From Bacteroidota bacterium (GTDB taxonomy: Bacteria; Bacteroidota; Bacteroidia; Cytophagales; Cyclobacteriaceae): DNA of 56,857 nt. The notes below the pieces were generated by a model. It worked only from the letters and a program-made list of their open reading frames with translations. It was not told the DNA's origin and did no database searches. The first letter of the stretch is position 1. Every line of letters starts with the position of its first letter. Where the stretch lies: positions 1 through 56,857 of the forward strand of contig JAQCJI010000008.1 in assembly GCA_027593175.1 (NCBI GenBank), written 5' to 3'. Positions 6,855 through 16,052 of the stretch are shown here, one piece after another. Position numbers and translations under genes: made by a program.

Positions 6855-7070
6855 ATGAGCTCCACCTTGATTGACCTGCTGCTTTGCGGATTAGCCTATG
6901 TATTGATTAGTTATTTCTTAGGGGTATGGACCAAGTCTCGGCGTGAATCCTCTTGTAATTCAGATGACTCGGAGGGAGGAGAATTTGATCATCAACCTCC
7001 AGTACTTGATTTGCCACCTGGGATTAGTTGGCCAGAGGAAGAATTAGTAGACTCGGAAACCTATCAATGA
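6855..7070 (+). CDS. Small single-pass membrane protein, unknown function
   Basis: A 71-residue product with one N-terminal transmembrane helix (about residues 5-24), a short basic stretch (TKSRRE) that would keep the rest in the cytoplasm, and an acidic, Pro-rich tail. The stop lies inside the end of the convergent Fur-family gene, with a 7-base overlap. A near-match promoter element (TATCTTTT) lies about 13 bases upstream. The coherent composition supports a real gene, but I know no homologue. Confidence 0.55.
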   Translation: MSSTLIDLLLCGLAYVLISYFLGVWTKSRRESSCNSDDSEGGEFDHQPPVLDLPPGISWPEEELVDSETYQ

Positions 7071-7477
7071 CATTTTTCGCAAATTCCTTGCACGAGTAGG
7101 CTCATTTCTTTTTTTTCAAAGCCCTTTGGTAGGGGGATTGAAGGCAAAGAGATATCTTCTAAGCAAATGGTTTCCTCACATTTTTCACATTTGAAGTGCA
7201 CATGTTCGTGGTTATGTACATGCGCTTCTTCTCCATGGCTGCAAAAGGCATACTTGGTAGCCCCGCTGTCATCAAGGACCTTGTGGATAAGATCTTTCTC
7301 CAAAAAAGTTTTAAGCGTACGGTAGATGGTTACTCGGTCAAACTTGTTGTTGAGCGTGTCTTCTAGATCCGCATGAGAGAGAGCGACATTCTTATCTAGG
7401 AACTCTTTAATAATCACCAATCGGCAATCCGTGATCCGCAAGCGATGCGATTGTAAGATTTGGAGAGGAGTAGCCAT
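7064..7477 (-). CDS. Fur-family transcriptional regulator (Fur/Zur/Per type)
   Basis: The 137-residue product has an N-terminal winged helix (LQSHRLRITDCRLVII, then FDRVTIYRTLKTFLEKDLIH) and a C-terminal dimerisation domain with a His-rich loop (HVHNHEHVHF) and two CEKC pairs that should bind structural zinc. The family senses metal or peroxide and represses uptake or stress genes; which ligand applies here cannot be read from sequence. The ATG at 7477 is chosen over a TTG seven codons upstream because the conserved domain starts soon after MATPL. A COG0523 metal-chaperone operon lies 7 kb away and is a plausible target. Confidence 0.9.
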   Translation of the reverse strand: MATPLQILQSHRLRITDCRLVIIKEFLDKNVALSHADLEDTLNNKFDRVTIYRTLKTFLEKDLIHKVLDDSGATKYAFCSHGEEAHVHNHEHVHFKCEKCEETICLEDISLPSIPLPKGFEKKEMSLLVQGICEKCH

Positions 7478-7487
7478 GATTGAATTA

Positions 7488-7498
7488 TTGATTATCAA
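7488..7498. promoter_or_regulatory. Possible autoregulatory operator upstream of the Fur-family gene
   Basis: TTGAT-T-ATCAA is a perfect 5-1-5 inverted repeat 10 bases before the Fur-family start codon, in an AT-rich setting typical of Fur/Zur boxes. The match to the classical 7-1-7 box is only partial, so this is a weak inference. Confidence 0.3.
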
Positions 7499-10186: not shown

Positions 10187-11323
10187 ATGATAAAATTAGA
10201 GGCCTTGAAAACTAGTAAACAGGACGTTGTAATTGTTGGAGGAGGGCTTGGAGGCTTGATTGCCGCGTTACTTCTAGTAGAGCAGGGACACCCAGTTACC
10301 CTTATTGAAAAAAAAGTGTACCCCTTTCATCGGGTATGTGGTGAATATGTTTCCAACGAGGTCCTCGGATTTTTGAAGCGCCACCAGCTTTTTCCTGATT
10401 TTTTGGACTTGCCACTCATGGAGACATTTGAATTTTCGGATACCCAAGGTAAGGCGACACGACTTCCATTAGATTTGGGAGGATTTGGCATCAGCAGGTA
10501 TTTGCTAGACGACTGGCTCTACCGCCTAGCCTGTGAGCGAGGAGTAGAGGTGATCACCGGCATGCACGTGACTGATCTTCATTTTGATTCTTTGGAAGAT
10601 CGCTTTCGGGTAGCCCTTTCTGATTTTACCTATCGGGAAGCCTATTTTGTACTGGGAGCCTTTGGCAAGCGGAGCAAGCTAGATCAGGTGTTGGAGCGCC
10701 CTTTTTTCTCCAAGCGTAGCCCCTACATCGGGGTCAAATACCACATCAAAACTCAGGGATCAAGGAATACGGTGGCGCTACATAATTTTGATGGAGGCTA
10801 CTGCGGCATCAATGCGATTGAAGGGGACACCTTCAACTTGTGCTATCTCGGTAGCCGTGAGCAGCTTCGGGAGCACGGCTCCATCCCAGAGATGGAAAAA
10901 AACGTGCTTTGGAAAAACCCCATCCTCCATCGTATTTTTCAAGAGAGTGACTTTTTATGGGAAAAGCCCGAGGTGATTACGGAAATAAATTTTGAGCGAA
11001 AGCTACCTGTCGAAAATCACCTGCTCCTATTGGGAGACGCCGCTGGCCTGATCACTCCACTCTGTGGCAATGGAATGGCCATGGCTATCCACTCGGCCAA
11101 ACTTGCCGCTGAGGCCCTCCAAAGAGGAACAACACGCCAAGAGGTGGAGGAGTATTATGCCTCTAGCTGGAATGAACAGTTTTACAAGCGACTCGGTGCA
11201 GGCAGAGCTATTCAGCGGCTTTTTGGTTCAGGCCGTGGATCTGTTATCGCTAGAAATCTGATTGAACATGTTCCTTTTGTAGCCCGTACCCTACTCAAAA
11301 ATACGCACGGACAGCCTTTCTAA
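10187..11323 (+). CDS. FAD-dependent oxidoreductase (geranylgeranyl reductase/hydroxylase-like) of the type III PKS locus
   Basis: The 378-residue product has the Rossmann FAD motif VVIVGGGLGG near its start, a VCGEYVSNEV segment typical of the geranylgeranyl reductase/aromatic hydroxylase flavoprotein group, and the second FAD motif LLLLGDAAGLITPLCGNGM at about residues 280-298. Members either reduce isoprenoid double bonds or hydroxylate aromatic rings. Here it sits beside a UbiA prenyltransferase, a type III PKS and a methyltransferase, so the two plausible jobs are saturating the prenyl chain or oxidising the phenol ring. It ends 4 bases from the convergent ubiA-like gene. The start is the ATG at 10187. 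Confidence 0.88.
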   Translation: MIKLEALKTSKQDVVIVGGGLGGLIAALLLVEQGHPVTLIEKKVYPFHRVCGEYVSNEVLGFLKRHQLFPDFLDLPLMETFEFSDTQGKATRLPLDLGGFGISRYLLDDWLYRLACERGVEVITGMHVTDLHFDSLEDRFRVALSDFTYREAYFVLGAFGKRSKLDQVLERPFFSKRSPYIGVKYHIKTQGSRNTVALHNFDGGYCGINAIEGDTFNLCYLGSREQLREHGSIPEMEKNVLWKNPILHRIFQESDFLWEKPEVITEINFERKLPVENHLLLLGDAAGLITPLCGNGMAMAIHSAKLAAEALQRGTTRQEVEEYYASSWNEQFYKRLGAGRAIQRLFGSGRGSVIARNLIEHVPFVARTLLKNTHGQPF

Positions 11324-11326
11324 TGC

Positions 11327-12220
11327 TCAATTAAACACCTGCAAAATCTGGGTGTTTTCCAGGAAATAGTAAATGAAAAAGGCATTTAGGGATATTGCTG
11401 AGAGGAAATTCATGCCCATGGCCCAGCTGTAGGTCGCGTATTTTGTAGGTTCACGAAGGATCATCCCCATCCAAATCAGAAAGAAGAGTGCAATGGGTGC
11501 CATAGCGGCCAAGTAGTATCCGACGATAGGCGTTTGGCCTTTGTCCACAAAATACCAGACAAAAGCAGAGGCAGTCAGGGCAAAAAATAGCGCAGAAAAT
11601 GCAAAGGTGCCCTTGATCCCAAGAAGCAGGCTCAGCGTGCGGTCCCCTCTACGGGCATCCTCTCCATGCTGGTACACTTGGGTCAGGGGATAATTGCCCC
11701 AGAGCATCAGGCTGGTAAGGAATCCCGGAAGAAGCACATGCGGCTTGAAGAATACCTCCCAACCGAGGTTGCTCAGCCCGGAATAGGCCATGGCAAAGGT
11801 GAAGTAACCTTGGAAAAGGCCTGCAATCACCCAACTAGTCCAGGCGTATTTTTTTAGGCGGATGGAAGGATGGCTATAGGCCATGCTGACTAATCCATAC
11901 AGGCCAAGCATACTAGCAAGCTCCCAGTTGATCCATGCGCCAAAACCCAATGCAATGCCAAAAAAGACCAGAGACCAACCGAGTAGGTCTTTGGTCACTT
12001 TGGGTGGCCGCTCCAGTCCGCCAATACTTTCTTCGTCTTTGTCAAAGTAACTATTGTACCCATTGCTGCTTGGGTAGAGAAAAAGGTGTAGGGTCAAAAA
12101 AACAAGAAGCATGCGTGCCCCGTCGTGATTGGGCGTCAAGGCCAAGGCAAATAAGAAAACAGGCATCAGAAAAAACGAAAAGGGGATGCGAAGGTGCAGG
12201 AGTGTGGAGCGAGTGATCAT
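11327..12220 (-). CDS. UbiA-family prenyltransferase of the type III PKS locus
   Basis: The 297-residue product has about eight or nine hydrophobic helices and both Asp-rich motifs of the UbiA superfamily: N56-x3-D60-x-D62 in NSYFDKDEE and D188-x4-D193 in GEDARRGDRT. These bind the diphosphate of a prenyl donor through magnesium. UbiA enzymes transfer prenyl chains to aromatic or quinone acceptors in the membrane. The acceptor here is likely the product of the neighbouring type III PKS. The gene is oriented against its neighbours: convergent with the flavoprotein (4-base gap) and divergent from the PKS (about 90-base gap), so its expression may be set by a shared divergent promoter region. 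Confidence 0.9.
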   Translation of the reverse strand: MITRSTLLHLRIPFSFFLMPVFLFALALTPNHDGARMLLVFLTLHLFLYPSSNGYNSYFDKDEESIGGLERPPKVTKDLLGWSLVFFGIALGFGAWINWELASMLGLYGLVSMAYSHPSIRLKKYAWTSWVIAGLFQGYFTFAMAYSGLSNLGWEVFFKPHVLLPGFLTSLMLWGNYPLTQVYQHGEDARRGDRTLSLLLGIKGTFAFSALFFALTASAFVWYFVDKGQTPIVGYYLAAMAPIALFFLIWMGMILREPTKYATYSWAMGMNFLSAISLNAFFIYYFLENTQILQVFN

Positions 12221-12309
12221 GGAATGTGGTTCTTGAGGGCCAATGTACAGCTATTTCGAAAAGGGTCCTTCGACAATTTAAATTAGAACTATTTCCTTAA
12301 CTTGAATCT

Positions 12310-13389
12310 ATGAATTCCAGTATCGTAAGTATCGGCCTTTCCAATCCAGGAGCGCCTGTACCCCAAGCTGAAATCTTGCGCTTCATGCAGGTAGTCCATC
12401 AACTGGATGCCCAAGAGCGAAGAAAGCTTGATTTTTTATATCGAAAGTCTGGGATAGATTCACGCCACAGTGTCTTGGAAGATTTTCAAAAGGAGGAGGT
12501 CAATGACTTCGCCTTTTTCCCGAAGAATAAAGAATTACATCCTTTTCCTGGTACAGCTGCCCGCATGCAGGTATTTGAAGAAAAGGGCCCCGAACTCGCT
12601 GAGCAGGCCGTTCGATTGGCCTTGCAGCAGGCGGAGGTTGAAGCCAACTCCCTTACCCATTTAATTTTAATTTCCTGTACGGGCATGGTCGCCCCAGGTC
12701 TTGAATTAGACCTGATGCGTCAACTGGACATCCCGAGTTCGGTGGAGCGCTATTGCATTCATTTTATGGGTTGCTACGCAGCCTTTACGGGTCTGAGGCT
12801 AGCAGATCAACTGGTAAAAGCCAATCCAAAAGCCCGAGTTTTAGTGGTATCCGTAGAACTCTGCACACTGCATTTTCAAAAAGAATACACCGAGGACAAT
12901 CTATTGGCCAATTCCCTCTTTGGGGATGGGGCCGCCGCCGCACTCGTGATGCATTCTGAGAAAGGCCTGCAGATCAAAAATTACTTAAGCGAGGTCCTCT
13001 GGGAGGGAGAAAAAGACATGGCCTGGAAAATCGGCGATTTTGGATTTGAGATGCGGCTCAGTCAGTATATTCCCTCGCTGCTAAACCAAGGCATTCGGCG
13101 ATTGCGCGATCTTTTTGAAGCCAAGTTCAACTTTTCTCAGATACAGCATGTGGCGATACATCCTGGGGGCAAACAAATTTTGATTCAAGTGCAGGACGCC
13201 TTTGGACTTTCTCCAGCCGTGAATCGACATGCTATGGAAGTGTTGCGTTCCTGCGGCAACATGTCCTCAGCCAGTATCTTATTTGTCTTGGAGCGGATGC
13301 TGCATGATCCCAGCATTCAAGGAGATATTCTTGCCTTGGGCTTTGGCCCTGGATTAACTTTGGAAACCACCCACTACGATAAACGATGA
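12310..13389 (+). CDS. Type III polyketide synthase (chalcone/stilbene synthase superfamily)
   Basis: The 359-residue product has the complete catalytic triad of the family in order and spacing: Cys123 in ISCTGMVAPG, His284 in VAIHPGGKQ and Asn317 in SCGNMSSAS, plus the C-terminal LGFGPGLTLE loop. Such homodimers extend an acyl-CoA starter with malonyl units and cyclise it to a resorcinol, phloroglucinol or pyrone. The bacterial branch often uses fatty acyl starters, but the starter and ring type cannot be read from the sequence. Its stop overlaps the methyltransferase start (ATGA at 13386-13389), so the two are translationally coupled. Confidence 0.95.
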   Translation: MNSSIVSIGLSNPGAPVPQAEILRFMQVVHQLDAQERRKLDFLYRKSGIDSRHSVLEDFQKEEVNDFAFFPKNKELHPFPGTAARMQVFEEKGPELAEQAVRLALQQAEVEANSLTHLILISCTGMVAPGLELDLMRQLDIPSSVERYCIHFMGCYAAFTGLRLADQLVKANPKARVLVVSVELCTLHFQKEYTEDNLLANSLFGDGAAAALVMHSEKGLQIKNYLSEVLWEGEKDMAWKIGDFGFEMRLSQYIPSLLNQGIRRLRDLFEAKFNFSQIQHVAIHPGGKQILIQVQDAFGLSPAVNRHAMEVLRSCGNMSSASILFVLERMLHDPSIQGDILALGFGPGLTLETTHYDKR

Positions 13390-14090
13390 GTATTTTTTCA
13401 CAGCGCTCCTGTGAAAAGGAAATCATGGATGACCTGAACTGCTCAGGTCCTGTTTTGGAGCAGACGCTTCGGGAGTTGAAGACCATCAACCGCTGGTTGG
13501 GGGGAAACAAAGTGACCACGCAGGGATTGAGGGAGGTGGTACAACGCTTTCCCCAAGAACAGTACAGTTTGGTAGACCTGGGCTGTGGAGGGGGAGATAT
13601 GCTTGCCGTGATGCAAAACTGGGCCCAGCAACAGCACCTCTCAATTCAACTGATCGGGGCGGATGCCAATGCGCATACCATCGGACTTGCCAAGCAGCGA
13701 CAGCAGCAGCTCAAGGGAATCCGCTGGCAAGTAGCCAACGTGTTTGACCAGGCTTTCTTTGAAGAGCAAGTGGATATTGCTACCTGTACGTTGTTTACCC
13801 ATCATTTTACGGACGAGGAACTCGTGCAACTTTTTCAAGGCTTGAAGCAAAAGGTGCGGCTCGCCATTGTCATCAATGACCTCCATCGCCATCCGCTTGC
13901 CTACTACTCCATCAAGTGGTTGACGCGCTGGTTTAGCAAGTCGCCCATGGTGCAAAACGATGCAGCCTTGTCGGTACTTCGAAGTTTTAGGAGAAACGAT
14001 TGGGAGTCAATTTTCAAACAGGCTGGCCTGAGTCAGGTACACATTCGCTGGCGCTGGGCATTCCGATGGCAGATTTGTGTGTATGTCTGA
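13386..14090 (+). CDS. Class I SAM-dependent methyltransferase of the type III PKS locus
   Basis: The 234-residue product has motif I VDLGCGGGDML (about residues 59-69), a following acidic residue in LIGADANA, and an ATCTLFTHHF segment, all as in class I methyltransferases. Coupling to the PKS by a 4-base overlap suggests it methylates the PKS product on oxygen or carbon, as in bacterial PKS-methyltransferase pairs such as Bacillus BpsA-BpsB and Streptomyces SrsA-SrsB. The C-terminal WRWAFRWQICVYV is hydrophobic and aromatic, perhaps for lipid substrates. It ends 4 bases from the convergent small gene. Confidence 0.88.
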   Translation: MSIFSQRSCEKEIMDDLNCSGPVLEQTLRELKTINRWLGGNKVTTQGLREVVQRFPQEQYSLVDLGCGGGDMLAVMQNWAQQQHLSIQLIGADANAHTIGLAKQRQQQLKGIRWQVANVFDQAFFEEQVDIATCTLFTHHFTDEELVQLFQGLKQKVRLAIVINDLHRHPLAYYSIKWLTRWFSKSPMVQNDAALSVLRSFRRNDWESIFKQAGLSQVHIRWRWAFRWQICVYV

Positions 14091-14292: not shown

Positions 14293-15492
14293 TTAGAATG
14301 GCCAGGGATCACGAAACGATTTTCCTGCAAAGAAATCCTTCAATTCCTGGTCTGTAAGTAGACAGGAAGTTAATTCTGCTAAAATCGATTTTTCTTCTGG
14401 ATATTGGCCTATCAGGACCAATTCATTTACATGATCTCCAAAATTTTTATCCCACTTGGATTCAATTTCTTTTTGATTTTCCTGATAGGATGCAGAGCGA
14501 ATTCTATCCTTGAAAGGCATGGATGCCCACCAGACACCTACAGGATCAGCTTTTAAACTACCGCCCGCCTGGGACCAAGAAATAGCCTGGTCTTTTCGAG
14601 AGGCGATGTAAAATAAGCCTTTACTGCGAAGGATTGACTCCGGCCAGGAATCACTAACGTAATCCCAGAAGCGTTGGGGATGGAAAGGTCTGCGGTCTCT
14701 GAAAACAAAACTTTTGATGCCATATTCTTTGGTTTCGGGCACATGTGTTTTTTGGAGTTCCTCCTGCCAGGCTTCTGTACCTTCTAGGTCAGCCGAATCG
14801 TATAAACCTGTATTCAACAGTTTTTGCGGATCAATTTTTCCATGCGCGATTTCCAAGATTTTTGCTTTGGGGTTCAATTTTTTCAGTATGGCCTTGAGTT
14901 CGGCCGCCTTTTCAGGTCTTACCAGATCTGTTTTGTTAAGTAAAATAATATTGGCAAACTCAATTTGATCCGTGAGTAAGTTGACCAGTGTTCGCTGGTC
15001 TTCTTCGTCGGAATTCAAGCCTGCCGAGTAAATAGTTTCTCCACTTCCAAACTGTTTTGGGAAGTTAAATGCGTCTACGACTGTGACCAACGTGTCTAGT
15101 CTGCTAAATTGAGAAAGGTCAATACCTTTTTCCTCGTCCACGAAGCTAAACGTCTGTGCAACAGGCAAAGGCTCAGAAATCCCTGTACTCTCAATGAGTA
15201 AGTAATCGAAGCGATTTTCCTTAGCGAGTTGCTCAATTTCAATCATTAGGTCCTCACGCAAGGTGCAACAGATGCAGCCGTTACTCATTTCAACTAGTTT
15301 TTCTTCTGTTTTGGAAAGGGTATTTCCTTCAGCGATTAGTCGGGCATCTACGTTGATCTCTCCCATGTCGTTGACGATGACAGCTACCTTCAATCCTTGT
15401 TTATTGTGAAGAATATGGTTCAATATCGTAGTTTTGCCTGCTCCTAAAAATCCACTCAGGACTGTAACAGAAAGTTTATTAGCGTTGTTCAT
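14293..15492 (-). CDS. COG0523 (CobW/ZigA-like) GTP-binding metallochaperone
   Basis: The 399-residue product has the P-loop GFLGAGKT (residues 14-21), the CICC metal site at 73-76 in [11 protein letters not shown], the [10 protein letters not shown] switch-like segment, the LNKTDL guanine-specificity motif, and a C-terminal CobW_C domain ([12 protein letters not shown]). COG0523 proteins deliver metals, often zinc, using GTP. The start overlaps the stop of the upstream gene (ATGA at 15489-15492). Together with the DUF3299-like protein and a Fur-family regulator nearby, a role in zinc limitation is the best inference. Confidence 0.92.
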
Positions 15493-15950
15493 GAGGTGAT
15501 TACTGCGTTTTTAAGGATAAAAGTCATTTCTTCTACATTCGTTGCATTCAATTGGAGGATGCCGCGAATTTGGACGATTTGATCAAGTTTGGGTCTTTTG
15601 CTGGGTGGGGTGCTGAGGTAAACCACAGCTACGGATTCTGGCCCTGCACCTCCACAAAAAAAGCAAGCCTCCATGGGGTATTTGGATAAGATCAAGGTCT
15701 TGCTGTTGCTGGTTTCTAAAGGGATGTAAAATCCTTTTAGGGTTACCGATTTTCCTTGAAGGGCGAGTAATTCTGTACCGAATTGGGGATAATAGAAGTA
15801 GGCTCCAAACTGCTTATTTAGCTTTTGTTCAAACTTAGTCTTTCCAAATAGAGTCCATAAAGTAGGGGTAGTATCAAATGATGATATCCCTAGGGATAAA
15901 ACCCCCCAACTGAGCGAGACTAAGATTTTTGAAGGAATAAAAGTGTTCAT
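15489..15950 (-). CDS. DUF3299-like exported protein of the COG0523 operon
   Basis: The 153-residue product has an N-terminal hydrophobic export signal or anchor (residues 5-24), then a compact domain with the hallmark [19 protein letters not shown], a CxxC pair that I associate with the DUF3299 family. Such proteins are found with zinc transport and chaperone genes. The stop overlaps the start of the GTPase gene by 4 bases, so they are coupled. The ATG at 15950 is chosen since it begins the hydrophobic segment; an ATG at 16004 or a GTG at 16010 would add a polar extension. Confidence 0.75.
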
Positions 15951-16052
15951 GGGACGCCTTTCTGGAAATTTGGAAAACTGCTCTGAATCAATCGTGGCAA
16001 ACATTAACACGATTCGTAACTCTTCCCGAAGTATTTGTTGCTTATTACAAAT

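Follow-up and report, generated by a model that had tools for sequence, protein, structure and literature searches.

Cassettes of three genes that encode a type III polyketide synthase (PKS), a methyltransferase (MT) and an oxidoreductase are described, in the accessible parts of the literature, from cyanobacteria, Planctomycetota, mycobacteria and Streptomyces. In this work, a locus of this kind was analysed in a 56,857-nucleotide stretch of DNA from a member of the Cyclobacteriaceae in the phylum Bacteroidota (hereafter the window; contig JAQCJI010000008.1, our contig C14, of assembly GCA_027593175.1). As in the hid-, pkq- and srs-type clusters, PKS, MT and a flavoenzyme are encoded together, and a fourth gene encodes a membrane protein of the UbiA superfamily. 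Srs-like chemistry is plausible for the locus. On the basis of gene content, protein families, predicted folds, purifying selection and the co-occurrence of PKS and UbiA at genome level, we consider it fairly probable that the four genes form one pathway for a prenylated, methylated polyketide lipid; the substrates, the order of the steps, the prenyl donor, the product and its role are those we infer. The first-pass annotation of the window had suggested that UbiA adds a prenylation step and that the product is perhaps an antioxidant or electron carrier; that PKS and UbiA belong to a shared pathway is strongly supported by their co-occurrence and by the conserved loci. Since PKS and UbiA are nearly always together in relatives, they probably make one molecule.

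Among 395 genomes of Bacteroidota (G, L and f numbers denote our genomes, loci and family codes), a degenerate pattern for the UbiA motif YPxTQxYQH was found in 26, and the reversed control pattern in none among the rows listed. The PKS profile (A2) scored at least 465 bits in exactly the same 26 genomes, a cut that is partly circular because some of these PKSs went into the profile; G321, next in rank, reached 440 bits and had no UbiA pattern. A hidden Markov model built from the window and the named loci only gave at least 400 bits in 20 of the 59 coded loci fetched, all with the UbiA pattern (one of them, L102, has a PKS identical to that of the named locus L039), and at most 388 bits in the remaining 39, all in genomes without the pattern. 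In a quick tree of 71 PKS rows, one branch with moderate support (SH-aLRT 83, no bootstrap) separated 32 UbiA-associated rows from 39 others. Where both states are present within a family code (f3, f4, f5, f8 and f13), 14 genomes have both genes, 21 have neither and none is discordant. The co-occurrence extends to unlinked genes, as UbiA lies away from the PKS in six of the 26 genomes (G072, G146, G158, G166, G190 and G387).

The second sample comprised 375 genomes of the window's class, which we take to be Bacteroidia in GTDB, and overlapped partly with the first. The UbiA pattern and the PKS profile (at 1e-90) each matched 72 genomes, 69 of them shared, and in 62 of these 69 the two genes are at most 10 kb apart. 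In the three genomes with PKS only (G474, G600 and G708), an adjacent UbiA was found by profile, so that after this follow-up 72 of 72 PKS-positive genomes carry UbiA; the UbiA numbers of this sample are lower bounds because the UbiA profile covered only six genomes, the three with PKS only and the three with UbiA only. As for the genomes with UbiA only, the start of a PKS stands beside UbiA at a contig end in G590, and in G635 (61% complete, with one stop in the UbiA match) and G666 (67% complete) UbiA lies at a contig end and a PKS match occurs elsewhere in weaker or partial form only. Because the pair is present in at least 72 of 375 genomes of the class and in all nine sampled genomes of the window's own family (code f1, the window's genome included), the product is probably a common lineage trait and not a rare metabolite.

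PKS loci without UbiA were also found. A separate PKS clade of nine loci (L108, L110, L111, L119-L123 and L153; codes f3, f4 and f7, the last at a guess probably Flavobacteriaceae) has Ile, Pro and Phe at the positions of window residues A128, C185 and W239, and in the other 62 of 71 PKS rows position 185 is Cys and position 239 is Trp. These nine genes have FAD and MT genes from the window's families as neighbours, and no UbiA was found within about 7 kb on each side. Sequence and motif scans revealed no other UbiA protein near 43 UbiA-less PKS loci, where an unrelated UbiA could be missed because the controls of the scans were weak (seven of eight control loci were recovered by the sequence scan, four of them as self-matches of queries, and five of eight by the motif scan). 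Four plasmid loci from Psychrobacter, Deinococcus, Falsirhodobacter and Microbacterium, hand-chosen from 192 matching plasmid records, contain PKS, MT and flavoenzyme genes without an annotated UbiA; the Microbacterium PKS lacks an annotation and matches in two pieces.

The comparison of gene neighbourhoods in relatives, proposed earlier as a check, upheld the gene set: UbiA is beside the PKS in 58 of 59 named loci, and the sole exception (L059) is a stretch that starts inside the PKS. All 59 have the MT and 53 have the FAD gene, and the carriers include named strains of Algoriphagus, Belliella and Cecembia. The FAD gene was not detected in L044, L049, L052, L054, L057 and L059; in L044 and L057, which are full-length stretches, it was absent from the vicinity and may lie elsewhere. 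The window's gene order prevails in Algoriphagus-type loci. Other arrangements are UbiA>PKS>MT>FAD (L113-L118, L124, L191, L194 and L195), PKS>MT>FAD>UbiA (L196-L198) and a divergent UbiA/PKS pair in which MT and FAD follow the PKS (L055, L109 and L200), and the PKS-UbiA linkage persists through these several orders; PKS and UbiA are the tightest pair seen. A check of 11 genomes, among them all six with unlinked UbiA, found the FAD gene in 11 and the MT in nine. The surroundings of the PKS in G600 and G708 gave no convincing FAD match. One genome (G703) carries two complete, diverged four-gene sets (L194 and L195, PKSs of 408 and 296 bits), hinting at two products. Purifying selection acts on all four genes of the window, with dN/dS of 0.045-0.110 against L003 and L006, the FAD gene comparison with L003 being near saturation.

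The layout of the locus is given in Table 1. The four biosynthetic genes reported within 3.9 kb were confirmed as open, stop-free and belonging to known Pfam superfamilies, and so was the coupling of PKS and MT by ATGA, a four-base overlap at 13386-13389. The FAD gene converges on UbiA, leaving 3 bp between their ends, and UbiA and the PKS diverge over 89 bp; with these orientations the four genes are not one operon. Upstream of the PKS, the block TAAATTAGAACTATTT is exact in 10 of 16 relatives compared and has one mismatch in one more (11 of 16 in total). No RNA family or tRNA was found in the window by Rfam and ARAGORN scans. A gene for a Fur-family regulator (7064-7498), two genes upstream, is syntenic in many named loci. 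On the other side, genes for a CobW/ZigA-like GTPase (535 bits against a cut-off of 600) and for a protein of 155 amino acids occupy 14293-16010, between the MT and a gene that we take to be MutS-like; neither was found at that place in L003-L010, and both are in the same interval in L018, L019 and L058. The source assembly comprises 2.49 Mb in 117 contigs and is 83.5% complete, the host being represented by metagenome DNA only. Among named relatives, the closest are metagenome bins that carry the labels Cyclobacteriaceae, Algoriphagus, Spirosoma, Cytophagales or Bacteroidetes; Algoriphagus strains come next.

Table 1. Features of the four-gene locus (window coordinates).
Feature	Position	Strand	Remarks
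FAD-dependent oxidoreductase, probable ring hydroxylase	10187..11323	+	378 aa; motifs VCGE and GDAAGLITPLCGNGM
UbiA-superfamily membrane protein, probable prenyltransferase	11327..12220	-	297 aa; PF01040
UbiA motif 2, non-canonical, Q181..Q184-H185..D188..G192	11645..11680	-	
UbiA motif 1, non-canonical, N56-S57-Y-F-D60-K-D62	12035..12055	-	
Divergent UbiA/PKS intergenic region	12221..12309	no strand	contains block TAAATTAGAACTATTT, conserved in the closest relatives
Type III polyketide synthase	12310..13389	+	359 aa; triad C155-H284-N317
Class I SAM-dependent methyltransferase (MT)	13386..14090	+	234 aa; overlaps PKS end

In the proposed pathway, the PKS would be loaded with an acyl starter, add malonyl units and cyclise the chain to a ring, likelier of the resorcinol type than a pyrone. 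The FAD enzyme would hydroxylate the ring, the soluble MT would perform C- or O-methylation, and the UbiA-family membrane protein would attach a prenyl chain, giving a membrane lipid or quinol as the putative end product. Several points weigh against this reading. The match between PKS and UbiA may stem from a single gain, so that the genomes do not count as independent draws. Methylation is not universal, because no MT was found in two of the 11 genomes checked (G190 and G371), nor near the PKS of G600 and G708. Three matches in the genomes checked contain one stop each (FAD in G387 and G072, MT in G166). Catalysis by UbiA is not certain because canonical Asp residues are replaced. Halogenases are the best sequence hits of the FAD enzyme among solved structures, and its best model is that of the geranylgeranyl (GG) reductase superfamily, TIGR02032, at 89.8 bits. 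As to the ring, W281 of ArsB is reported to favour resorcinol (PMC9927152, accessible part). Trp239, whose equivalence to that residue is unproven (ArsB and ArsC are absent from the printed alignments), was dropped as a resorcinol marker: Pks11, listed as an alpha-pyrone enzyme, also carries Trp at the aligned position, and Trp239 therefore gives no decision between resorcinol and pyrone.

The PKS is assigned to type III by both Chal_sti_synt domains (N 99.8 bits, C 58.7 bits) and a Cys-His-Asn triad, and its best match among solved structures is Steely1. The triad had first been read as C123-H284-N317; H284 and N317 stand, each in 71 of 71 PKS rows, and the nucleophile is instead C155 in FMGCYAAF, likewise kept in 71 of 71. 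C155 is aligned to C175 of Pks18 (1ted), presumably the nucleophile there, and C123 was rejected, being a separate residue in SCTGM, invariant across the 25 PKSs of alignment A2. The residues T124, A128 and C185 correspond to T144, A148 and C205 of Pks18, which we assume to line its tunnel, and this match is compatible with an open acyl tunnel. That the PKS makes an alkylpyrone, prenylated by UbiA in place of a resorcinol, is conceivable and rather doubtful. Pks18, whose product we take to be a pyrone, is among the best solved matches of the PKS family, and Pks11, recorded as an alpha-pyrone synthesis enzyme, leads the solved matches for two other Bacteroidota PKSs and shares the Trp. On the other hand, the published PKS-MT-oxidoreductase cassettes yield resorcinol derivatives, as far as the accessible parts of those papers go, and a phenol would suit a ring hydroxylase better. 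The MT matches Methyltransf_25 with 42.7 bits and PRK06202 with 142.6 bits, below the cut-off of 243.

The FAD enzyme matches FAD_binding_3 (38.8 bits, cut-off 22). The VCGE motif noted in the first-pass annotation is present, C51-G52-E53 being invariant in 90 of 90 FAD proteins. In its AlphaFold model (pLDDT 88.3), the five best Foldseek hits are 3-hydroxybenzoate 6-hydroxylase, with halogenases at ranks 6 and 7. In L128 and L185, a different flavoenzyme group fills the same slot and fits best with the monooxygenase-type models PRK08244 and PRK06184 (UbiH/PRK08244 hydroxylase group). Since this group takes the slot, hydroxylases lead in Foldseek and the UbiA-less clade keeps the FAD gene, we read the enzyme as a probable ring hydroxylase. 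The main rival for its role, which we regard as unlikely, is that it reduces the prenyl chain added by UbiA, as a GG reductase or MenJ would, and does not hydroxylate the ring. Of the NCBIfam models, TIGR02032 fits the window protein best, and the models for TIGR02032, MenJ, BchP-ChlP and QhpG are each matched by 24 of 24 members of A3; the Psychrobacter and Falsirhodobacter proteins also fit best with the GG-reductase model. The window protein, however, stays below the cut-off in every listed model match (158.8 for TIGR02032; that of QhpG likewise), an aromatic hydroxylase leads the 50 Foldseek hits listed and no GG reductase is among them, and the nine loci of the other PKS clade share the FAD family where no UbiA was found nearby. 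A halogenase role is disfavoured despite the sequence hits: flavin-dependent halogenases have the motif WxWxIP, which occurs in none of the 90 FAD proteins, the window's included. The FAD gene also falls into two allele classes, the window protein being 96-98% identical to L006, L009 and L010 (dS 0.18 against L006) and 74-76% to L003-L005, L007, L008 and L011 (dS 2.98 against L003). Because UbiA, PKS and MT are uniformly close across the same nine loci (81-94% identity), this split suggests allelic replacement of the FAD gene alone.

Membership of the UbiA superfamily follows from PF01040 (62.4 bits, cut-off 34.2) and from the predicted fold (pLDDT 93.3), for which Foldseek gave DGGGP synthase, AfUbiA, UBIAD1 and ApUbiA (7bpu, 4tq4 and 4od4 among the entries). 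The canonical motifs of this superfamily are NDxxDxxxD and DxxxDxxxG. The earlier statement that both Asp motifs are present did not hold, since 91 of 91 sequences have N-S-x-x-D-x-D and Q-x3-D-x3-G instead: N56, S57, D60, D62, Q181, Q184, D188 and G192 each occur in 91 of 91 and H185 in 90, with S57 and Q184 in place of D and a variable position 64 (D in three of 91). The protein was rejected as MenA or CtaB, as the genome has separate paralogs (L062, L063, L064, L066 and the weak L067) that we named by our own reading of sequence and neighbours; L063 and L064, which we read as MenA, show the canonical Asp pattern ND..D and D...D...G. Protein L067 on contig C95 is a further weak UbiA-family member (20.4 bits, which is below the cut-off). 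That the UbiA homologue belongs to the pathway and is no polyketide prenyltransferase, but is inactive, a cyclase or a user of another donor, appears improbable: its motifs are non-canonical and its similarity to known UbiA families is weak, yet the altered residues are invariant, D60, D62 and D188 are retained and the predicted fold is UbiA-like. Finally, although the flanking Fur-family, DUF4953, PurK and PurE genes are also kept in many named Algoriphagus-type loci, an accident of neighbourhood, with unrelated genes inherited vertically, is extremely improbable, as in other family codes PKS and UbiA remain associated despite different gene orders, and they co-occur even where they are not linked.

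Returning to the single pathway for a prenylated polyketide lipid, we tentatively propose that its product could be a widespread membrane meroterpenoid quinol of Bacteroidia with fatty-acyl-derived and prenyl tails, which might, alongside menaquinone, form a second quinone pool or act as a structural lipid. Its synthesis would involve a UbiA subfamily whose diphosphate site is remodelled (N-S..D.D / Q...D...G). The locus makes the products of orphan type III PKSs in Bacteroidota a testable question, and in this UbiA subfamily the limits of change in the Asp motifs of prenyltransferases can be probed on a natural example.

By comparing the locus with known systems, likenesses and differences can be set side by side. 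Type III PKS clusters are reported in Bacteroidota genomes (Flavobacteriaceae, Reichenbachiella and Marivirga), with no product of a PKS-UbiA set named in the accessible parts of these sources. The first-pass annotation recognised no described Bacteroidota product of the gene set, and the open-licence PMC literature, which leaves most subscription papers and bioRxiv outside, likewise gave none. At the protein level, Steely1 (PKS domain) and Pks18 are distant homologues of the window PKS, with no UbiA partner in the portion of data available for them; ChlG, DGGGP synthase, UBIAD1 and MenA are like the window UbiA in PF01040 and predicted fold, but differ in motif residues, and sequence similarity is weak. 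The losA locus of Micromonospora endolithica has UbiA and MT genes near a type III PKS, but an acyl-CoA dehydrogenase lies between, and the accessible text mentions neither oxidoreductase nor monooxygenase (PMC7587189). The hidABC cluster of cyanobacteria combines MT, oxidoreductase and type III PKS for the resorcinol-derived hierridin, whereas a prenyltransferase is named, in the available text, in one hierridin-like cluster only, that of Raphidiopsis mediterranea, whose product is unknown (PMC8086630). The same three functions form the MT-oxidoreductase-type III PKS operon of Planctomycetota (58 of 96 PKS genes), which yielded alkylresorcinols heterologously and in which the role of the oxidoreductase is given as unresolved; the accessible part of that paper, however, never mentions UbiA or a prenyltransferase (PMC10896814). 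The pkqABC genes of Mycobacterium smegmatis and srs of Streptomyces griseus share PKS, MT and oxidoreductase or hydroxylase and yield quinones, but the word "prenyl" does not occur in the accessible text of their paper (PMC9927152). What is known is thus the PKS-MT-flavoenzyme cassette, and what is new is its dedicated, lineage-wide UbiA partner.

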